Positions 2,237 to 28,793 of a stretch of 29,235 bases of DNA are shown here, piece after piece. This DNA comes from a virus. The stretch spans positions 1 to 29,235 of IMG/VR virus record IMGVR_UViG_3300044630_003661; one strand, given 5' to 3'. Position 1 is the stretch's first letter; every line of letters starts with the position of its first letter. Under the pieces are notes generated by a model, which ran no database searches, was not told the origin of the DNA, and worked only from the letters and a program-made list of their open reading frames with translations. The position numbers and the translations under genes were made by a program.

Positions 2237-3970
2237 TTATCTAAGCTTACCGTATGTGATTTTATATAAATCCAGTGTTGCTTCATGTATAGATTTAGGA
2301 GCTGCTGCGGAAAATGGCATAGGTGCACTTGCTGTTTGATTATTGTTATTGTTGATTTGTGTTATAACATCACCAGCTTTATCCATACCTGCACCCACTA
2401 AATCTGCAGTTTCAGACGCCATTTCTTTTAATACTTTTGCAGTCGCGGTGCCTAAACCTGGGGCTAAGTCTAACATTTCTGTTTTACCGTCGACAGTTAT
2501 CGGAAATTGAAAAGCGCTATCTATAAGCGATATAGTTTTATCTCCCAATGGAGCTAAAAAGTCATCAACAAGAGAAAGTGCCGATTTAGCCATTTTGCTA
2601 AAACCGTCGTTCATAGTTTTTATAGAATCTTCTGCAAAATCCTTGCCCCGCTGCAAATAAAAATCTGTCATACTCGGATAATATTTTCCATCCGAACCTT
2701 TAAACATTTCTTCTCCAGATTCACTAAACATACCGGGAATAGGTTTTACAGTATTTTTACTCATATCCTTTTTTTCTTGCATCAATTCTCTTCGAGGATC
2801 CGTTTCAGCAAATTTTTTACGATTTTCATTTGCTTTTTCTTTTTGTATCATGCCTTCAAGTATTTTGTCTTCTTCTGGGCCGGTCATATTGGCAATTGAC
2901 AATGCAGTTGCGCCAAAGCCCAACATACTAAACAGTGCGGCTAACTTGCTGCCTCCAGCTGCGGCTGAAGTGGCTCTGCCTCCAGCTGCAGCTGAAGTGG
3001 CTCCTGATCTAGTAGTTTCTCTTAGTATTTTTGCATCTTCTATAGCTTCACTAGCATTAGATAATAAAGGAAATCTTCCTCTGGGTAATCTTTTTTGACT
3101 ATTGGGGGGACTGGTTGTTTTTTCTCCGTTAACAACTACAGGTGGTATAGCGCCGCCGCCGCTACTAGGCGAGCCTTGTCTATTTTTATTAAGATCAAAA
3201 TCACCCCCTCCAAAAGCTTTAGTAAGTTGGTCAAGAACAAATTTGATGCTGGCAAGAATACCTGTTAATACACCTGCTATTGCTGCACCTATAGGACCTG
3301 CTAATGCCGCAATAGCCGAAACTACTGATCCCGCTAATCCGACGATTCCTGTTATTATCCCGCCTATTGCACTAATAATTCCTGTGCCTAATACTGCCCC
3401 AAAGCCTGTAAGTGCCCCCAATAAACCTTTAAGTAATCCACCGCCACCGCCACCTCCGTCGCTGCCGTTTATTCTTTCGGCAATAGCAGTAGCTAGTAAT
3501 TCACGTTCTTTGGCTCTTGCGCTGTCTGAATATTTTTCTCGTATAAATCCAATATCGCTACTAACTAATTCTGTTAGACTAAGTATTTGCGATGTATCAT
3601 CCATCATCTTTTGTTGATATTTAGATGGACCAAATAATTTACCCATCATATTTCTAAAGAATCCCTTATCGTCGGAATTCTTATTAGAATTATTTCCTAC
3701 ATTTGGTCTTTCTCTAAAATTGCTCTTATTCTTTTCAAAGTATTTTTTGATTTCTGAAAGATTAGATCCTTGGCCTTGCAATAATGTTTTTCCCATCTCT
3801 TGCATGTCTTTTCGAAGACTTTGAAACTCTTTGTTTTGTTTCATTAGTCTGTCGGAAACAGTATGTAATACTTTAGTTTGTCCTTGCAAGTTCTGCGTTT
3901 GTGCATTTACAGCTTCAAGCAATATTCTATCAGTATTAGTAACACCCTGAGGATTTTGAGGTAAGGCCAT
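2237..3970 (-). CDS. 29: Tape measure / baseplate hub protein, gp29-like
   Basis: A 577-residue protein, close to T4 gp29 (590 residues), which sits in the hub and tail tube and sets tail length. Residues 1-70 are Gln/Lys-rich and helical (LLEAVNAQTQNLQ, VSDRLMKQNKEF). A Gly run (GGGGGGG) at about 173-179 precedes a long hydrophobic Gly/Ala/Ile segment to about 250, typical of tape measure proteins. A Pro/Ser linker follows, then a second Ala/Gly-rich part containing a 9-residue tandem duplication, and a helical C-terminus with a poly-Asn stretch. It is the last gene of the leftward operon, starting 2 nt after the gp51-like frame, the classic chaperone-then-tape-measure order. Identification rests on length, composition and synteny rather than on a sharp motif. 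Confidence 0.75.
   Translation of the reverse strand: MALPQNPQGVTNTDRILLEAVNAQTQNLQGQTKVLHTVSDRLMKQNKEFQSLRKDMQEMGKTLLQGQGSNLSEIKKYFEKNKSNFRERPNVGNNSNKNSDDKGFFRNMMGKLFGPSKYQQKMMDDTSQILSLTELVSSDIGFIREKYSDSARAKERELLATAIAERINGSDGGGGGGGLLKGLLGALTGFGAVLGTGIISAIGGIITGIVGLAGSVVSAIAALAGPIGAAIAGVLTGILASIKFVLDQLTKAFGGGDFDLNKNRQGSPSSGGGAIPPVVVNGEKTTSPPNSQKRLPRGRFPLLSNASEAIEDAKILRETTRSGATSAAAGGRATSAAAGGSKLAALFSMLGFGATALSIANMTGPEEDKILEGMIQKEKANENRKKFAETDPRRELMQEKKDMSKNTVKPIPGMFSESGEEMFKGSDGKYYPSMTDFYLQRGKDFAEDSIKTMNDGFSKMAKSALSLVDDFLAPLGDKTISLIDSAFQFPITVDGKTEMLDLAPGLGTATAKVLKEMASETADLVGAGMDKAGDVITQINNNNNQTASAPMPFSAAAPKSIHEATLDLYKITYGKLR
2951..3004 (-). repeat. 27-nt tandem duplication inside the tape measure gene
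   Basis: 2951-2977 and 2978-3004 are adjacent 27-base copies that differ only at one internal G/A and the final base. They encode GATSAAAGG and RATSAAAGG on the - strand. The copies are in frame and add nine residues. Confidence 0.9.
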
Positions 3971-4146: not shown

Positions 4147-4190
4147 TCCTTCATGGGAAAGAGTTAGACGAAAAAATTCTGTAATCCCTC
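4147..4190 (-). promoter_or_regulatory. Putative -1 ribosomal frameshift signal at gp26/gp51 junction
   Basis: On the - strand the gp26 frame reads GAG GGA TTA CAG AAT TTT TTC GTC TAA. The heptamer T TTT TTC (4176-4170) has the X XXY YYZ form in the gp26 frame. An SD-like GAGGGA (4190-4185) ends 8 nt upstream. Seven nt downstream, UCUUUC (4162-4157) can pair with GAAGGA (4152-4147) across a CCAU loop (6 bp including one G-U). These are the same three parts as the E. coli dnaX signal. The gp26 frame and the -1 frame overlap for only 25 nt (4164-4188), and the heptamer lies inside that window. Confidence 0.72.
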
Positions 4191-4856
4191 AAGCGTCAAT
4201 TCATTGTGAGCACCACACGAAGGACAATCCTGTTCAACGTGTTGTACTACTTTTGGCATAGTTACAAAGAAGTTTTCTAACATTCCAAATTGTGCTTTGG
4301 AGAATCCATTAACAAACTCTGTCAATTCCTCTGTAGTATAATCGTCGTATATTTTCTCTTCGGTATAAATTGCTTTAATACATTTACACAACAAATCTAC
4401 AATCTTATCAGATTTAAAGTTTTGATAAATTTCGAGCATCTCTTCAAATTTAGGATACCGCATTTCAATCATGATCTTATCTGTGATATTAAGTTTTGAT
4501 GAATGATCTTTATCTTTCTTAACTTCTGCCTTTGTTATATCTAAGTCAAAGTTAATTTTATTTTCGCAATTATTACATTGTAAAGATAGATTCGCAGTTT
4601 CACCTATTGACTTTGCTCTCATATTAAGGAAGATATATTCTACATCAAAGTTTGCTACTTCTTCCATATTCAATTTATTGAACGTGCATATATCTACTAA
4701 TTCAGTTATTACTCGTTGAATCTCTTCATTATCCGATTCCAAAGCTGTTAAAAGAATTTTATATTCTCTAACTAGGAATGGTCGATACTTTATCTTTTCT
4801 CCGGATGAGGGTAAAGTCAATTCATATGTTGGGGTTTCTAATTTAGGCAATGCCAT
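4164..4856 (-). CDS. 26: Baseplate hub subunit gp26
   Basis: This 230-residue protein matches the gp26 family (T4 gp26 is 208 residues), needed to assemble the baseplate hub. It opens MALPKLETPTYELTLPSSG, followed by KYRPFLVREYKILL and YIFLNMRAKSIGE, typical of gp26 of marine T4-like phages. Two cysteine pairs, C94-x-x-C97 and C211-x-x-C214, suggest a four-Cys zinc ribbon. The C-terminus LEGLQNFFV carries the slippery codons for the -1 shift into the gp51-like frame. AAAGGA lies upstream of ATG 4856 at 4864-4869. It follows the gp54-like gene after a 16-nt gap and precedes the tape measure, the place where tail-assembly chaperones usually sit. Confidence 0.88.
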   Translation of the reverse strand: MALPKLETPTYELTLPSSGEKIKYRPFLVREYKILLTALESDNEEIQRVITELVDICTFNKLNMEEVANFDVEYIFLNMRAKSIGETANLSLQCNNCENKINFDLDITKAEVKKDKDHSSKLNITDKIMIEMRYPKFEEMLEIYQNFKSDKIVDLLCKCIKAIYTEEKIYDDYTTEELTEFVNGFSKAQFGMLENFFVTMPKVVQHVEQDCPSCGAHNELTLEGLQNFFV

Positions 4857-4872
4857 TGTATATCCTTTTCAG

Positions 4873-5583
4873 TTATTTGCCCGAATTCCAGGCTTTTCTT
4901 TCTTCAGATGTAAGCGGTCCTCTTCTAGACAAACCGTTGTTAAATTCATTTCGTTCTTGTTGAGTTAGAATTGTTGTTACCGGTCTTCTATTATTGCTTC
5001 CCGGCAAAATAATACCGCTCGACATTTTTGCAGCTATCCATTTTCTATAAGCAAATGTTACATTTAATTTATGTACTTGATTTTGCGTGCTATTATTTAA
5101 TTCCATCATAGCAACAGACCTTGGGAACGCTTCTATCAATTCCACTGCATATGTAATATTATTCTTTTCATCTAATTGATCTATTTTTATAGATGCAGCA
5201 TATTCGGATTGATAACTAACATAGTATTGATTCGGGTTTACAATCTTAGCCATCCAAGAGTCAAAGAATGCCTTTACTTCCATTTGTTGATCTACAAGGA
5301 ACGTCATAGATATTCCTTCTCCACCATAATCAGTACCAACTGGTCTTTGATATGCAGGACCAATAATTCTTTGTTGTTTTACATTTATTGTCTGTGTTGG
5401 AAGATTCGCAGATTCACAAAATAAACTAACAAGACGAGAATTTTCAGATGTTAAACTATATGGACCTAACTCGGAGGAAGCTATAGACGGAGGAACAAGA
5501 ATGTTAACCTCAAATCTATTTGGTTTAGCTAAACCTCTAGTTCTAACTTCTGCTTTAAATTTATCCAATGAGTGAATTGCCAT
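4873..5583 (-). CDS. 54: Baseplate tail-tube initiator, gp54-like (tail-tube fold)
   Basis: A 236-residue protein with the look of a phage tail-tube-fold subunit: FKAEVRTRGLAKPNRFEVNI at the N-terminus, SLFCESANLPTQTI, GGEGISMTFLVD, FFDSWMAKIVNPN, then AVELIEAFPRSV and VHKLNVTFAYRKW. This order (RGLAKPNRF, ANLPTQ, a middle strand, AFP, VTFAYR) recurs in gp19- and gp54-type proteins of T4-like phages. It is shorter than T4 gp54 (320 residues). Because the major tube gene 19 normally lies with the sheath gene 18, and this one lies in a hub operon, tube initiator is the better guess. Its ATG overlaps the previous stop (TAATG). An unassigned tube-like protein is the alternative. Confidence 0.6.
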   Translation of the reverse strand: MAIHSLDKFKAEVRTRGLAKPNRFEVNILVPPSIASSELGPYSLTSENSRLVSLFCESANLPTQTINVKQQRIIGPAYQRPVGTDYGGEGISMTFLVDQQMEVKAFFDSWMAKIVNPNQYYVSYQSEYAASIKIDQLDEKNNITYAVELIEAFPRSVAMMELNNSTQNQVHKLNVTFAYRKWIAAKMSSGIILPGSNNRRPVTTILTQQERNEFNNGLSRRGPLTSEERKAWNSGK

Positions 5584-6158
5584 TAATAGTACCCGTTTTT
5601 CTTTTTAGTTTCTTGCCAGACTTTTTCTTTTTTCACTTTTCTAAAACTCTCAACAGGCAACATGGATGCAGTAATCCAATCGTTATAATTTATCTTTAAA
5701 AATCTGGATCTTAAGTGATCATTTAAATAATGCTTTACACAAGCGGTTGCTGCCAAATACTTAGATGAACTATTTAGTATTTGCCAAGAAATTTCAATTC
5801 TAGTTTTTTCTGTTATTTTTTTATCTGTAGTAAGTTTACTCAGCTCTCCTAATAATCTAAATCTAGCTAAGTATGGTAAATAGTGTAGGTTGATACCTAG
5901 GAACCCGTCAGGTACAGTTCTGAAAGGCAAAACTAGAGGAACCGCATCATAATAGGGCAATGTCTCTTTATATTTAGGATCGTACATAAAAAGGTACATA
6001 TTGCCCGGAACTATTCTAGAAGATAGTTTTTCATTTCTAATTAATTGTATACCCGAAAGGTTGGATCCTAAGTTTCTAACTTGATCTCTGTACCATTGGT
6101 ATGATTTCCGAGCATCCCCGGCATTCATATTAACTTGTTGGAATATATTATCCGCCAT
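5583..6158 (-). CDS. Conserved T4-like virion-associated protein, function unassigned
   Basis: A 191-residue protein. The central segment is characteristic: SSRIVPGNMYLFMYDPKYKE, then LPYYDAVPLVLPF, DGFLGINLHYLPYLAR, a helical stretch, and near the end RSRFLKINYNDWITASMLPVE. I recognise this pattern from T4-like and other large marine phages, but not with a firm function. In T4 gene 2 (DNA-end protector) lies beside gene 4, and here gene 4 is the neighbour, so a gp2-type role is possible; the evidence is context only. No signal peptide or membrane segment is seen. It overlaps gene 4 by 11 nt and its stop overlaps the next start by 1 nt, so it is tightly embedded in the leftward late operon. 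Confidence 0.75.
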   Translation of the reverse strand: MADNIFQQVNMNAGDARKSYQWYRDQVRNLGSNLSGIQLIRNEKLSSRIVPGNMYLFMYDPKYKETLPYYDAVPLVLPFRTVPDGFLGINLHYLPYLARFRLLGELSKLTTDKKITEKTRIEISWQILNSSSKYLAATACVKHYLNDHLRSRFLKINYNDWITASMLPVESFRKVKKEKVWQETKKKNGYY

Positions 6159-6606
6159 CTACTAATCCTAAATCTTTTTCGGTTAACACCATGAACTTCA
6201 TGTTTCTATCCTGACAGAATTCGAATGCTGCTTTCCATTTAGCTTCATTTACGCCATATTGGAATACTTCATCTATAAACCTTTTAGTTTTCCTTGCGGG
6301 AATTGCTGGCGGTTTAGTGAATCTTTCAGGCTTTATTTCTATCAAGTATTTTTGAGTAGCACCAGTTTTGTTCTTAATTTTGATGTAAAAATCTACAAAG
6401 TACCGATGCACTTTTCTATCAACAGGGGATATGTATGGAACAATTACGGTTTCAGAGCCCCACTCCTGAACCGACGAATTTAGATCGCACCACTTCATAA
6501 ATCGCAGCTCCCACAACGAACGATATACTATATTGTTAATATCGCCGTGATATTTTGCAGGATTCTTGGCCCTAAACTTGCCCTTGTAGGTTTTGGTGTA
6601 CAACAT
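6148..6606 (-). CDS. 4: Head completion protein gp4
   Basis: This 152-residue protein matches T4 gp4 (150 residues), which acts late in head maturation so that the tail can join. Shared features are GKFRAKNPAKYHGD, IVYRSLWELRFMKW, RYFVDFYIK, YLIEIKPER and a C-terminal FMVLTEKDLGL. Glu33, Asp72 and Glu90-x-Lys92 are arranged like a PD-(D/E)xK nuclease site, consistent with the known nuclease-like appearance of the family; activity is inferred. It is the first gene of the leftward operon and starts 28 nt after the promoter at 6641-6634. The leader is too short for any other gene. Confidence 0.9.
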   Translation of the reverse strand: MLYTKTYKGKFRAKNPAKYHGDINNIVYRSLWELRFMKWCDLNSSVQEWGSETVIVPYISPVDRKVHRYFVDFYIKIKNKTGATQKYLIEIKPERFTKPPAIPARKTKRFIDEVFQYGVNEAKWKAAFEFCQDRNMKFMVLTEKDLGLVDGG

Positions 6607-6610
6607 CTAA

Positions 6611-6618
6611 TATAAATA
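6611..6618 (+). promoter_or_regulatory. T4-type late promoter TATAAATA for gene 48 operon
   Basis: Perfect match to the T4 late -10 element TATAAATA, in the only divergent intergenic gap. With usual spacing transcription would begin near 6624, leaving a leader of about 27 nt before ATG 6651. Confidence 0.85.
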
Positions 6619-6633
6619 ATAATGATTCAACAA

Positions 6634-6641
6634 TATTTATA
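6634..6641 (-). promoter_or_regulatory. T4-type late promoter TATAAATA for gene 4 operon
   Basis: The + strand reads TATTTATA, so the - strand has a perfect TATAAATA. Expected start is near 6628, about 22 nt before the gene 4 ATG at 6606. It faces the + strand promoter at 6611-6618. Confidence 0.85.
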
Positions 6642-6650
6642 AAGAAAACG

Positions 6651-7781
6651 ATGGCTAATATCCGGGACAGAAGAGATCAAGATAGATCAGAAAATGGCGA
6701 GCTGGAGTTTCAAAATCAAAATAGTTATCTAAGTGAGTATCGTATTGGTACTCTAGAATATCCAGAAGGATTGCGACAAAACCCAGATTTGCAGCATTGG
6801 GTTGCTTTCTATATTAATACAAGAGATAAATCGATAGTTGGAAATAAACCATCTTCTTCATATACATCATCGGCCGCCGGTGATACTAATTACGTGGATA
6901 AAAAAGAACAAGATAGAGTAAATTTACTAAACAACAGTGGCTCTAAATTATCACAGGATGCGTTGGCATCTACAATACCGGTCGTTCGAGAAAATGCGGG
7001 TAAACTCGCAGGTGCAATTACCTTTATAACCAAAATAGGTACAGGTTCTAAGATTAAGGATGCTGTTACAGCTTCGGTTTTGGTTGGAACTACCGCGAGA
7101 GTTTTCGCAGAAGCGACAAAAAATTTAAATTTGCCGTCTTTTACTTCAGGAAGCACTTCTAGATTAAAAGACGTAATCACTCTGCATATTGAGGAAAGAC
7201 CATCTGTTAAATACGGAGTCAATTACGCAGATACAGATATGGGACTTTTAACAGGTCTATTAGTTGAAGGATCTGCGGCAGCTACTGCAGGGAATTTGAA
7301 GGGAGCTTTGCCAGAAATGCAGGCAAGATTCATAAGATCCTTGTTAAAGGTACCTGTATTAAACAATATAACAGAACTCGCTACCAGAGAAAGAACTAAT
7401 CCTTTTAGAGAAGTTTTATTTGAATCCGTTGATTATAGAACATTCAATTTTAGATATAGATTTTTTCCAAAAAGTTTTAATGAGTCTGAAAAGATTAAAT
7501 CTATTATCGACACATTTAAAATACACATGCACCCTCAATTATCCGAACAAAAATTGTTCTATCTTTATCCTTCGGAATTTGATATAGAATATATGTACGG
7601 AGATAAGGCTAATCCATATCTACACAAACTTGCAAGATGTGCACTAACAGATATGTCTGTAGAATATGGCGGAGAGCAATTTTCAACACATTCTGATGGG
7701 TCGCCTGTCGAAATAGGATTGACATTAACGTTCCGAGAATTAGAACAAATGACCTCAGAAAGAGTAAAAAATGGCTACTAA
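6651..7781 (+). CDS. 48: Baseplate tail-tube cap gp48
   Basis: This 376-residue protein compares with T4 gp48 (364 residues), which caps the central baseplate hub and, with gp54, starts the tail tube. The C-terminal half is most telling: RTNPFREVLFESVDYRTFNF, FFPKSFNESEKIKSIIDTFK, HMHPQLSE, YLYPSEFDIEYMYG, CALTDMSVEYGG and LTLTFRELEQMT, with T4 gp48 equivalents in the same order. The N-terminal half contains an Ala/Gly/Thr-rich helical region (about 115-150). The start has only a weak AAAGAAAAC upstream. It leads the long rightward late operon and overlaps gene 53 by 11 nt. Confidence 0.9.
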   Translation: MANIRDRRDQDRSENGELEFQNQNSYLSEYRIGTLEYPEGLRQNPDLQHWVAFYINTRDKSIVGNKPSSSYTSSAAGDTNYVDKKEQDRVNLLNNSGSKLSQDALASTIPVVRENAGKLAGAITFITKIGTGSKIKDAVTASVLVGTTARVFAEATKNLNLPSFTSGSTSRLKDVITLHIEERPSVKYGVNYADTDMGLLTGLLVEGSAAATAGNLKGALPEMQARFIRSLLKVPVLNNITELATRERTNPFREVLFESVDYRTFNFRYRFFPKSFNESEKIKSIIDTFKIHMHPQLSEQKLFYLYPSEFDIEYMYGDKANPYLHKLARCALTDMSVEYGGEQFSTHSDGSPVEIGLTLTFRELEQMTSERVKNGY

Positions 7782-8379
7782 ACTTTTTGATCTGTTTCCT
7801 AAAATTTCGTATACTTTAGACGACGAAGAAACTAATCAAGTTGTTACTGATATTTTTAAAAGAATTATTCTTTCTAAAGAATTTCAAGAAAATAATTCTT
7901 ATTTTGATCTTTATGATATTATGGATGGAGAAACCCCTGAAGAAATTTCTTATAGATTTTATGGAACTCAGGATTTACATTGGCTAGTACTAATGACCAA
8001 TAATATTATAGATCCTAGATTTGAATGGCCTGTGTCAGAAGCAGAATTAATAAAAAGAGTTGAGAGTAAATACGGAACAGAAAAAGATATATTTACTGTT
8101 AATAGAGCCGTTAATCCTGCAGGCTATCAAATAGAAACATATTTTATTTTGTTACAGGAATCCACTCACAAAAAACCTAAAAGATTAATACTGGAAGGCG
8201 TAGACGATGGCGGAATCAATATTCCAATTTCTTATAGAGACACAATAGTTGGCACTGAATATCAAAGTAATTTTGAAGTAGAACAAACAAAAAACGAAAC
8301 TTACAGACGTATCAAAATTTTAAAATCTTCTGTAGTTCAAGATGTTTTATTAAGTTTTAATAATATAGCAAGCACATAA
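7771..8379 (+). CDS. 53: Baseplate wedge protein gp53
   Basis: A 202-residue protein close to T4 gp53 (196 residues), which joins wedges to each other and to the hub. It shows the gp53 signature: LFDLFPKISY near the start, a short helical part, then ISYRFYGTQDLHWLVLMTNNIIDPRFEWPVSE, the segment resembling a LysM-like fold with a Trp-rich loop. The C-terminal ETYRRIKILKSSVVQDVL resembles the end of T4 gp53. It overlaps gene 48 upstream by 11 nt and gene 27 downstream by 1 nt (TAATG). Confidence 0.9.
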   Translation: MATKLFDLFPKISYTLDDEETNQVVTDIFKRIILSKEFQENNSYFDLYDIMDGETPEEISYRFYGTQDLHWLVLMTNNIIDPRFEWPVSEAELIKRVESKYGTEKDIFTVNRAVNPAGYQIETYFILLQESTHKKPKRLILEGVDDGGINIPISYRDTIVGTEYQSNFEVEQTKNETYRRIKILKSSVVQDVLLSFNNIAST

Positions 8380-9734: not shown

Positions 9735-12310
9735 TAATAGATAATTCTTTCACGTGGTGGACAGGTGTCGTAGAGGATAGAGACGATCCTGAAAAATTAG
9801 GTAGATGTAGAGTACGAATATTTGGGTATCATACTGCAGATACAAATTTATTACCTACATCAGATTTACCATGGGCTATTCCTTTACAATCTATTACATC
9901 GGCAGCAACTTCTGGTTTAGGACATACCCCTGTAGGTATCGTTCCTGGTACATGGGTTATGGGATGGTTCTTAGATGGTGAAGAGGCGCAGAGACCTTTA
10001 ATATTAGGAACTATTGCAGGCAAACCTATTACTTCTGCAGATGCCGTTAAAAAATTAGCTCAACAAGAAATAGAAGTTGGTTTTTTTAAAGCATCGGATG
10101 GAAAGGTAATTCGAGACGAAAATAATAATCCTATTGTTGTACCTACAAATACGACGAGCGGAATAACTGCACTACCGCCTTTAAGTGTGAATGATATAGA
10201 AATATTATTTAAAGCTATTGCAGTATCTTTATCTAATAATAATATTAGTACAGAAAGCACTACAGGCAATTTAGGCAAATATCAAATTAGTGTTTCTAGA
10301 TTAATGGAATTGGGATATATTAATAGACAACGAGAAGATTCTATCCCCGAAGAATGGGCAAATTTTGCAGAAAATTGGACCGGGCAAAACGGCATAAAAA
10401 CAAAGGCAATGTTTTTAGCAAATGAGAACGAACAAGAAATAGCTATGTTTGCTTCTATTAAAGAACATTATAATACTTTAATACGACTAGAAAAAATAAC
10501 AGAAACGGATAATTATAGAAACGTTGCGGGATTATTAACTGTTGCTCATGTCATGGGTGTTAATAATGCGGACAAATTAAATAAGAAAACTGAAACAGGA
10601 GTAAGAGCTAAAGATTATTTTGTACTAGGAAATAGTGCTTTGGGTGGAATAGAAACTGATTTTGTAAAATCTTTAGATAGTGCAGGTAATTATTTGCCAT
10701 CGGTCAATGATAATTCAAATGTATTAAATAACGATGAACTAAGAAAATTGCAAGGGTTCCAAGATCCAAATAAAAAATATCCTAAAATAGAATATGCAAA
10801 TGTTAGTGATATTAATAAATTAGCAGTAGGTGATACGTCTCACCTGTCTCTTTTAATAAAAGAAAATAAAAGAATAGATAAAATCCCAATTACAGGAACT
10901 CCTAAGACATGGGATGAACCTTCATCTGCGTATGGTGCAGTATATCCGTACAATCAGGTTATAGAAACAGAAGCGGGACACGTAATAGAATTAGATAGTA
11001 CTCCGGGCGCAGAAAGAATACAAGTATTTCATAAAAGCGGAACTTATATAGAGGTAGATGTTAATGGTACAATGGTTAGAAAAACCGTTGGCGATAATTA
11101 TGAGATATTAGATAGAAATAATTTTACATATATTAAAGGTGCCCACAATTTAACCGTTGAAGGGCAAACCAATATTTTTGTCAAGGATGATGCAAAGATA
11201 GAAGTGGATGGCGATTTATCTGTAGTTGGGCACGGTAAAACATCTGTTGCTACAGCAGGAACCGCATCTGTTGTTGCTGAAAATTTTATTGTATCCGCCG
11301 ATAAAAGTATTACGATGGTTACGAATGGAGACTTTAATATACAGGGTAAAGATATTAATCTGTATGCTAAAGGTGGTTCTATGACACAAAAAGCATCTGG
11401 CGATATTTCTATGGAGTCGGGAACAACAGGTACATTTAGTATAAAAGGTGGATTGGCATTATTATTAGATGCAGCAATAGTTAAAACTAAAATGGGTGCC
11501 AATAGAGTAAGAGAAATTGCATACGCAGTATTACCAAGACCATCTAGTAAAACTCCGGATAATACTGAAGTACCAGTATTGCCAAGAGAAATATTAGCCA
11601 AGTCTAATTACTTATTTGATTCTAATGAAGATAATGCTAGCACATATCAACAGCTATTAGAAAAATCTGGATTAATTAATAGCAAAATGAGGACTAAAAT
11701 TTCCACTACAGATTCAACTTCTCAAAATTCTAGTAGTACGGGCAATCCCGAATTAATTGTAAATTCGGATCTTAACGAAATAAGACAATTTAAATATTTT
11801 CCAAGATCATTTATATTATCCAAAAAAGAAAATAGAATATTTACACTTGGGGATATGTTACAAGATGGCGGTTTAACAGCGCAACGAGGATTAACAGAAC
11901 AGCAAATTGTTTATAATTTAAAACAACTAGTAGTTAATTGTTTAGATCCTATTAAAGCCAAATATCCAGATATGAAAATAACCAGTGGCTTTAGATCTAG
12001 TACTTCTCAAGTATTCGGAAGTATATCCGAGAAAAGCGATCATGGATTGGGTGCAGCTGCAGATATTAAATTTACTAATACATATAAACGAGAATATAAA
12101 GCAATTGCAGAATGGATCGTAGCAAATGTTCCACACCGACAGATAATATTAGAATATTACTTTCAACCCGGAAGTAGTAAATTAAAATCTGCTTGGATTC
12201 ATGTATCATTTTTAACATATGATGGATCTTTGGTAAAATCTTCATATCCTAACGTACAAACATTCGTTAACCATCAGTCTAAATATACTAAATTGGTTAA
12301 CTTGGCATAA
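9731..12310 (+). CDS. 5: Baseplate hub spike gp5 with transglycosylase-like and M15 peptidase domains
   Basis: An 859-residue spike protein, longer than T4 gp5 (575). Residues 1-100 are the OB-fold (WWTGVVEDRDDPEKLGRCRVR, VPGTWVMGWFLDG, RPLILGTIAG). Residues about 150-310 replace the T4 lysozyme domain: STESTTGNLGKYQ (Glu175 as candidate acid) and VAGLLTVAHVMGVNNAD resemble phage transglycosylase-like domains. About 415-590 has short Val/Gly strands like the gp5 triple beta-helix. Residues 690-859 look like peptidase M15: SGFRS (752-756), SDHGLGAAAD (His771, Asp778 as metal ligands), Glu808, and WIHVSF (His824). Together these would cut glycan strands and stem peptides during entry. It follows gene 27 with an ATGA overlap. 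The OB-fold and M15 calls are firm; the transglycosylase call is moderate. Confidence 0.9.
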   Translation: MIIDNSFTWWTGVVEDRDDPEKLGRCRVRIFGYHTADTNLLPTSDLPWAIPLQSITSAATSGLGHTPVGIVPGTWVMGWFLDGEEAQRPLILGTIAGKPITSADAVKKLAQQEIEVGFFKASDGKVIRDENNNPIVVPTNTTSGITALPPLSVNDIEILFKAIAVSLSNNNISTESTTGNLGKYQISVSRLMELGYINRQREDSIPEEWANFAENWTGQNGIKTKAMFLANENEQEIAMFASIKEHYNTLIRLEKITETDNYRNVAGLLTVAHVMGVNNADKLNKKTETGVRAKDYFVLGNSALGGIETDFVKSLDSAGNYLPSVNDNSNVLNNDELRKLQGFQDPNKKYPKIEYANVSDINKLAVGDTSHLSLLIKENKRIDKIPITGTPKTWDEPSSAYGAVYPYNQVIETEAGHVIELDSTPGAERIQVFHKSGTYIEVDVNGTMVRKTVGDNYEILDRNNFTYIKGAHNLTVEGQTNIFVKDDAKIEVDGDLSVVGHGKTSVATAGTASVVAENFIVSADKSITMVTNGDFNIQGKDINLYAKGGSMTQKASGDISMESGTTGTFSIKGGLALLLDAAIVKTKMGANRVREIAYAVLPRPSSKTPDNTEVPVLPREILAKSNYLFDSNEDNASTYQQLLEKSGLINSKMRTKISTTDSTSQNSSSTGNPELIVNSDLNEIRQFKYFPRSFILSKKENRIFTLGDMLQDGGLTAQRGLTEQQIVYNLKQLVVNCLDPIKAKYPDMKITSGFRSSTSQVFGSISEKSDHGLGAAADIKFTNTYKREYKAIAEWIVANVPHRQIILEYYFQPGSSKLKSAWIHVSFLTYDGSLVKSSYPNVQTFVNHQSKYTKLVNLA

Positions 12311-12316
12311 TAAATA
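12309..12316 (+). promoter_or_regulatory. Late-promoter-like AATAAATA before gene 25
   Basis: AATAAATA differs from TATAAATA at one position and starts within the gene 5 stop codon. Only 5 nt separate it from ATG 12322, so a normally spaced start would fall on the ATG itself. No Shine-Dalgarno sequence is seen for gene 25. It may be a promoter giving a leaderless message or just an AU-rich translation start region. Confidence 0.35.
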
Positions 12317-15942: not shown

Positions 15943-17487
15943 ATGGCCTATAATTTAACAGCTAGCAGACAAACATTATCCGAAGGTGAGTCTGTAGTAT
16001 TTTCATTGAACGGAACAGGGCTTCCCACAGGAACTCTTGTGCCTTTCTCTATATCGGGTACCAATATTAATTCTTTGGATTATACAGGTGTGTCTGGTTT
16101 ATCTGGAAATTTTATTATACGAAATGATAAAAGTCAAGTAATACTAAATTTAGTAAATGATTTGAAAACTGAAGGGCCAGAAACATTAACCTTGCGTCTT
16201 ACCGGTCCTAATAGAAGCGAAAGTATTGCTATAACTATTTTAGACACATCTGTACTTCCTACAGGAAACATTGCGGAATTCTTTATACGACCAAACGTTT
16301 CTACTTTATTTGAGGGGCAATCTGTACTATTTACAGTAACAGCAAAAAATGTTTCTGTCGGAACCGTTGTTCCATATACAATCTCAGGAAGCCTTGTAAA
16401 TTCTGATGTTTTTAACATTCCTTTAACTGGAAATTTAATTTTTGCAGCAAATACTTCACAAGACACTATAGCTTTTGTCAATTTACAAATATTTGAAGAT
16501 AATATAACAGAAGGCGATGAAACTATAATACTGATAATCACCCCAGATTTTCCATATTCTTTAGAAATAAATGGTTCAGCTACAATATATGATAGTTCAA
16601 CATCTGCTTCGCAAAAATTAAATGTTTCTCCGGATTACATAAGTATAGTTGAAGGGAGTAATGTAACATTTACAGTTAATGCCGAGAATGTTCCGATTGG
16701 CACTAATGTGTTTTATCAAATAATACCTTGGACAAGTTGGGATACTCCTAGTGATCTTTTTCCTGCATCAAATTTATCTGAAAATGATTTTGCAGGATTG
16801 TCTTCATTTACAGGAAGTTTTCCTCCTCTAACACAGCCATCTGCAAATTCTTTAAGTAATGTAACATCTATTACGTTCACAACTATAGATGATTTTATTT
16901 TTGAACCAACTGAGTATTTTTATTTAAGTGTCTTTACCGACACCAATTTAAGTGTAGGTTCACCGATTATTGCTATTAGAGATTCGGGGAATACATATCT
17001 AAGAAGTAAATCTTTATTTTCGGGCAACGTGATTGTTTCATTTTTAGAGTCTGCAATATTGAAATCTAATATTGGAGGCACTTTTACTAAACTCGGAGGC
17101 TGGCCAGATACAACTGGACAATTATCAAATTATATGGTTGTTCAAGGAAATACTCCATTTGCTGCAGAAGATTCTGACGTATATTATCAACCATTCTCAT
17201 ATGTAATTAGATCTTCTAGATCTATTGAAGATTGGTTGTTGACAATTAAAGATGTTTTGCATCCAGCAGGTTTTGCTATTTTCAGTGAAATAAATAATGA
17301 GACTTCTCCTGATAATTTAAACTATGCCGGCATACGTGTTAACGAAGATTCAGAAATATTTACATATTCTACAATAGGTGCAGATAGTATAAAAAATTCG
17401 TTGAATGTTAGTAATATTTCAATATCGGGTGTTTATACTAGACCACTAACAGCAGATCTTGTATTTTTAGAAACCAATCCGCAATAA
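15943..17487 (+). CDS. Baseplate protein with Calx-beta-like repeats and gp7-like C-terminal segment
   Basis: 514 residues. Three similar beta units occupy about 3-103, 112-217 and 226-347. Each has a start like LSEGESVVFSLN / LFEGQSVLFTVTAKN / IVEGSNVTFTVNAEN, a middle GTxVPFxISG-type strand, and an end like EGPETLTLRL / EGDETIILII / EPTEYFYLSV. This is the Calx-beta pattern, a domain often involved in calcium-aided adhesion. About 405-452 carries DSDVYYQPFSYVIRSSRSIE, then KDVLHPAGFAIFSE, which resembles the end of T4 gp7 (SRSYYVMKI ... FVHPVGFGFIAIT). The gene therefore looks like a gp7 tail with adhesion repeats in front. It starts directly after the preceding stop. Calcium binding is inferred, not seen. 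Confidence 0.72.
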   Translation: MAYNLTASRQTLSEGESVVFSLNGTGLPTGTLVPFSISGTNINSLDYTGVSGLSGNFIIRNDKSQVILNLVNDLKTEGPETLTLRLTGPNRSESIAITILDTSVLPTGNIAEFFIRPNVSTLFEGQSVLFTVTAKNVSVGTVVPYTISGSLVNSDVFNIPLTGNLIFAANTSQDTIAFVNLQIFEDNITEGDETIILIITPDFPYSLEINGSATIYDSSTSASQKLNVSPDYISIVEGSNVTFTVNAENVPIGTNVFYQIIPWTSWDTPSDLFPASNLSENDFAGLSSFTGSFPPLTQPSANSLSNVTSITFTTIDDFIFEPTEYFYLSVFTDTNLSVGSPIIAIRDSGNTYLRSKSLFSGNVIVSFLESAILKSNIGGTFTKLGGWPDTTGQLSNYMVVQGNTPFAAEDSDVYYQPFSYVIRSSRSIEDWLLTIKDVLHPAGFAIFSEINNETSPDNLNYAGIRVNEDSEIFTYSTIGADSIKNSLNVSNISISGVYTRPLTADLVFLETNPQ

Positions 17488-17490
17488 ATA
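17483..17490 (+). promoter_or_regulatory. Late-promoter-like AATAAATA before gene 8
   Basis: AATAAATA overlaps the preceding stop codon and lies 5 nt before ATG 17496, the same geometry as at gene 25. No Shine-Dalgarno sequence is evident. Function is uncertain. Confidence 0.35.
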
Positions 17491-28296: not shown

Positions 28297-28787
28297 TGGG
28301 AATATCCTTAAATAAAAATAATGCATTTACCGTCACTGATGCACACGGTAATACTAAATTTTCTTTAGATAAAAGAATGCCCCATATTATACATACATTT
28401 TCTGGCGTAGTAGATATACCAAAAATATATGGTAATGATTTTTCTCTTACCACTATAGATAGAGTGGATACTGTTGTTACGTTATCTAATTCATATATAG
28501 CAACGTCTTTTCAAGATAGTTTTATTTTGCCTTTTTATAAAATTACTGGTGGATTTTCGGACACAGAATCTTACATTGTAAGTGGTACCGGTTCTACTAT
28601 TGTTCGAAAAATATTTCAACCAACTACTAGAGAATTTTTAGGAAGCTCAATAATAGATATTGTTCAAGAAAACGGCGAATTAAAAATTGTATGTAATCAA
28701 CAGTTAGATAGAACTGGATATAGTAATATAGATGGGGATAGTGTAGTTGCCCTATCATACAAAATATACTATGGAAGATTTAACTAA
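28296..28787 (+). CDS. Fibre-associated protein, unknown (FSLDKRMPHI type)
   Basis: 163 residues. It begins with a short leader (AFTVTDAHGNTKFSLDKRMPHIIHTFSGVV). The FSLDKxMPHI element recurs in small proteins beside tail fibre genes of marine phages, but I know of no assigned function. The rest is beta-rich (FILPFYKITGGF, GELKIVCNQQLDRTGY, LSYKIYYGRF). The C-terminal aromatic strand is typical of beta-sandwich virion proteins. It is followed by a late-promoter-like site, so it may end a transcription unit. Confidence 0.6.
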   Translation: MGISLNKNNAFTVTDAHGNTKFSLDKRMPHIIHTFSGVVDIPKIYGNDFSLTTIDRVDTVVTLSNSYIATSFQDSFILPFYKITGGFSDTESYIVSGTGSTIVRKIFQPTTREFLGSSIIDIVQENGELKIVCNQQLDRTGYSNIDGDSVVALSYKIYYGRFN

Positions 28788-28793
28788 TAAATA
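28786..28793 (+). promoter_or_regulatory. Late-promoter-like AATAAATA before collagen-like gene
   Basis: AATAAATA (one mismatch from TATAAATA) begins within the preceding stop codon. A normal start near 28799 would give a leader of about 17 nt with a purine-rich CGGAAATAAA before ATG 28816. It is the most plausible of the three single-mismatch sites. Confidence 0.5.

Follow-up and report, generated by a model that had tools for sequence, protein, structure and literature searches.

The 44-bp gap between the divergent genes gp4 and gp48, at positions 6607–6650 of the viral contig IMGVR_UViG_3300044630_003661, very probably belongs to a T4-like phage as a compact late-promoter module acting in both directions, with predicted promoters serving a head-completion/hub operon on one side and a tail tube cap/wedge operon on the other. 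The contig, called the window here, is the entire viral record and comprises 29,235 bp. The features of the gap, whose limits are the start codons of gp4 (- strand) and gp48 (+ strand), are as follows.

6607–6650, no strand: divergent intergenic gap, 44 bp
6611–6618, + strand: predicted late promoter box TATAAATA for the gp48-gp53-wedge operon, transcription expected to start at 6624 (G), kept in relatives
6634–6641, - strand: predicted late promoter box TATAAATA for the gp4-gp2-tube-hub operon, transcription expected to start at 6628 (G on the - strand), kept in relatives
6619–6633, no strand: 15-bp spacer, A/T at 12 of 15 positions, containing both predicted starts
6611–6641, no strand: 31-bp dyad, a 15-nt inverted repeat with 80% complementarity, arms 1 nt apart and center at 6626

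The two boxes, at 6611–6618 (+) and 6641–6634 (-), lie face to face with 15 bp between them and are the only exact copies of TATAAATA in the contig, against an expectation of 9.0 (dinucleotide shuffles) or 8.8 (second-order Markov model). Late boxes in T4 occupy positions -13 to -6 (PMC1524935), and because the boxes of the window were placed in the same way the predicted starts fall at 6624 (+) and 6628 (-), giving leaders of 27 and 22 nt whose 5' ends would overlap by 5 nt. The positions, strands and gap length bear out a previous sequence-only reading of this DNA, which had described two perfect late promoters facing each other across 44 bp, and its predicted starts and five-base overlap were reproduced with the T4 convention.

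The assignment of both boxes as T4-type late promoters is supported by their sequence, their position, the gene content and their conservation. They stand just upstream of the virion genes gp4 and gp48 and are followed by an A/T-rich stretch, and both operons encode virion parts, as would be expected of late promoters. The late transcription machinery is encoded by G001, a complete 190-kb relative carrying gp55 (40% identity, 121 amino acids, E-value 3e-20), gp45 (E-value 7e-14) and gp44. Neither gp55 nor gp45 was seen in the window contig, which is a fragment, and with regard to gp33 the small open reading frames at 777–983 and 1012–1194, beside gp59, gave no significant family match.

Judged from comparison with related genomes, the arrangement is real and conserved, recurring in T4, in ocean cyanophages and in most of the relatives sampled. 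The relatives comprised 80 viral contigs with gp4 75–100% identical, together with marine cyanophage-like, T4-like and phiN3-like sets and isolates; a DNA-level search returned no close isolates. Pairs were scored as facing TAAATA cores at most 30 bp apart in 191 distinct regions upstream of gp4, T4 included. The facing pair, on whose presence in relatives the sequence-only reading had made its case depend, was kept in 166 of the 191 regions and was evident in nearly all of the 80 contigs; 3 regions had only a back-to-back pair, 20 a single core and 2 none. By comparison, facing pairs turn up in 0.15% of the remaining 75-nt stretches of these loci and in 0.46% of shuffled versions of the regions. 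The facing layout is retained even in the 31 relatives with a gap of at least 50 bp.

The distance between the boxes, whose conservation the sequence-only reading had named as a check, is not a fixed property of the class. It ranges from 7 to 24 bp with two outliers at 0 bp, and 69% of the spacings are of 14–18 bp; the predicted 5' ends overlap in 95% of the relatives' spacings. Strict conservation of the five-base overlap was rejected, given this range and the T4 spacing of 7 bp versus 15 bp in the window, which puts the T4 starts 3 bp apart without overlap. The spacer itself has a mean identity of 86% in the window clade versus 48% at fourfold sites of gp4 (767 pairs), with the common core TATAAATAAT.aTG.TcCAACAATATTTATaa. 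Where the two boxes of a pair are unequal, the gp48-side box is the closer to consensus in 87 of 94 cases, a bias that would favor rightward expression if the strength of a box matters. A preference for a purine at the predicted +1 position is clear in the window clade on the gp4 side only (86%), and a universal +1 purine on both strands was rejected. Back-to-back CTAAATA boxes were found in phiAS5 and Va3, CTAAATA being the late motif published for Aeromonas phage Aeh1 (PMC1524935). Four relatives (L198, L207, L215 and L244) have gaps of 6–17 bp with one late box, the second promoter having seemingly been lost or moved into coding sequence.

In T4 itself, the 47-bp gap between genes 4 and 53 (NC_000866 77338–77384) reads TATAAATA-GATAATA-TATTTATA. 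It resembles the window in its facing TATAAATA boxes, flanked by gp4 and by a baseplate operon, and differs in its 7-nt spacer and in that gene 53 adjoins gene 4, whereas gp48 and then gp53 follow in the window. This is the sole exact facing pair with a 2–30 bp spacer in T4, and G001 likewise has a single such pair, at the matching place; separated back-to-back exact pairs were absent from the 12 records searched. There are 32 exact copies of TATAAATA in T4, and since this equals the 32 perfect late promoter sites counted in a review (PMC2988020), the 4/53 pair is probably listed in the literature as two separate promoters.

Three compact divergent late junctions with gaps of 47–50 bp and a late-type box on each strand are present in T4. 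At the 26/51 junction, with a gap of 50 bp, two perfect late boxes lie within one polymerase footprint as in the window, but they overlap back to back as the palindrome TATTTATAAATA (NC_000866 116450–116461) instead of facing each other. The 49-bp inh/segE gap (NC_000866 112008–112056) has facing late-type boxes and a homing endonuclease gene as neighbor. Cyanophages of the Kyanoviridae (for example S-RIM2, Syn9 and P-RSM4) share the facing late boxes at gp4/gp48, in gaps of 35–38 bp, but with boxes CATAAATA and CCTAAATA or similar and with the gp48-ward box overlapping the gp4 start codon. Box type follows lineage, with TATAAATA in the window clade, CATAAATA/CCTAAATA in cyanophages and a similar pair in Syn9. 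Bacterial bidirectional promoters arise from -10 symmetry and likewise start transcription both ways from one short region; their -10 sequences are shared or overlapping, and the divergent transcripts do not overlap. The window differs from these in having two separate facing boxes of a phage sigma-factor type.

The proposed module would consist of two gp55-dependent promoters set face to face, each requiring only an 8-bp -10 element, with the right-facing one driving gp48, gp53 and the wedge genes and the left-facing one gp4, gp2 and the tube and hub genes. Each leader would run across the box of the opposite promoter. With an open bubble spanning -12 to +2 (PMC7892883), the predicted bubbles would lie side by side at 6612–6625 and 6627–6640 and the polymerase footprints would overlap; only one complex at a time would therefore fit on a given DNA. 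The conserved property, as far as the compared sequences indicate, is closeness within one footprint and not transcript overlap, because the T4 spacer gives none. The layout would also be economical. Because each leader contains the other box, two promoters fit into 35–50 bp, about 44 bp here, whereas some 80 bp would be needed if the promoters stood apart, back to back, with leaders unchanged. Genome compaction is thus the simplest reason for the arrangement.

Several points weigh against this interpretation. The preference for a +1 purine is weak except at the predicted gp4-side starts in the window clade. The 20 of 191 relatives with one recognizable core indicate that some lineages can do without the pair. 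Because the sequences are related to one another, the counts moreover exaggerate the weight of the evidence.

A different explanation, following the sequence-only reading, is that the facing layout persists because the two operons are held at a set ratio by mutual exclusion of the promoters and by read-through. The part of that proposal in which two polymerases could not occupy the region at once agrees with the geometry described above, from which we infer steric exclusion; the set expression ratio does not follow. The retention of facing boxes in the relatives with longer gaps, the prevalence of 14–18 bp spacings with overlapping 5' ends, the conserved spacer and the greater closeness of the gp48-side box to consensus would all suit ratio-setting. 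However, T4 has no transcript overlap, some lineages have back-to-back boxes or one box, in cyanophages the gp4 start codon dictates the base with which the gp48-ward box begins, and the 26/51 junction of T4 is solved by overlapping back-to-back boxes. The ratio claim is left unsupported because variable spacing, lost boxes and the 26/51 layout fit compaction at least as well, and we regard it as unlikely that ratio-setting accounts for the layout, of which it is a possible by-product. The excess of facing over back-to-back pairs leaves room for selection on coupling, a count that is weakened by shared descent.

A further candidate role involves the sliding clamp. In T4 the clamp acts from upstream of the promoter, and the nicked strand, or the side of the primer-template junction, sets clamp orientation and hence the polarity of the promoter that is activated (PMC2988020). 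A clamp in a given orientation would serve only one promoter of a facing pair, so that by analogy clamp orientation may choose which promoter fires on a given DNA and may resolve the promoter conflict without ratio-setting. It is rather doubtful, however, that the pair is a clamp-polarity switch in which the leading- and lagging-strand daughter duplexes would each fire a different promoter, as dictated by gp45 orientation; the two promoters do point opposite ways inside one footprint, but such a bias could be blurred by clamps left on DNA and by the many genome copies. Somewhat more doubtful still is a strand-sensing switch by which each fork would yield one daughter expressing cap and wedge genes and another expressing head-completion and hub genes, with balanced output in most T4-like phages.

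It is improbable that one box alone works or that host sigma-70 promoters drive these genes. A weak sigma-70-like match does overlap the boxes, with 1 found versus 1.4 expected, and some relatives have a single box; on the other hand, the boxes are conserved together in most relatives, gp55 is encoded by G001, and a host sigma-70 promoter was rejected, the match count being no better than in shuffles. Least probable by our estimate, and very improbable, is that the dyad centered at 6626 is an operator, RNA hairpin or terminator and not two promoters, since the distance between the boxes differs by over 10 bp among relatives that retain both, RNA folding is no better than in shuffles (z -0.7 and -1.0) with both predicted leaders less structured than shuffles, and no terminator-like site was found.

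The late-promoter class to which the bidirectional module would belong is already known, and what is added here is the conserved facing geometry at the gp4 junction, for which no published description was found in the searchable literature; nor were papers found there that treat phage T4, a late promoter and gene 53 together. A clamp of fixed polarity ties late transcription to replication in T4-like phages, and the presence of the pair in T4 itself offers a laboratory-tractable site for questions of polymerase exclusion and clamp orientation. The DNA needed to serve two divergent late operons would be about 45 bp.

The genes nearest the gap were assigned as follows.

6148–6606, - strand: gp4, head closure/completion, opens the leftward late operon (PHROG 218, E-value 2e-61; T4 gp4, E-value 4e-36)
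5583–6158, - strand: gp2, DNA end protector (T4 gp2, E-value 3e-22)
4873–5583, - strand: tail-tube-fold protein, marginally nearer to T4 gp54 than to gp19
4164–4856, - strand: gp26-like baseplate hub protein (T4 gp26, E-value 8e-11)
6651–7781, + strand: gp48, baseplate tail tube cap, opens the rightward late operon (PHROG 230, E-value 1e-49)
7771–8379, + strand: gp53, baseplate wedge (T4 gp53, E-value 1e-8)

The leftward order is gp4, gp2, the tail-tube-fold protein, the gp26-like hub protein, a small open reading frame at the gp51 position and a 577-residue protein, with gp59 and gp32 upstream of this block. The 577-residue protein (2237–3970, - strand) is Gly/Ala-rich, occupies the tape measure/hub position and has no PHROG or T4 match. 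The rightward order is gp48, gp53, a tail protein, gp5, gp25, gp6, gp8 and more structural genes to the contig end. Among the products of the wedge operon, a 514-residue protein (15943–17487, + strand) has repeated segments with a β-rich appearance and weak, partial PHROG matches.

The variant AATAAATA occurs on the + strand at 12309–12316, 17483–17490 and 28786–28793, in very short intergenic stretches located before 12322, before 17496 and after 28787. This form, with A at -13, is listed for nine T4 sites (PMC2988020). The first two sites end 6 nt 5' of a start codon, the ATG of which would be at +1, and the three may be weaker internal, or leaderless, late promoters.
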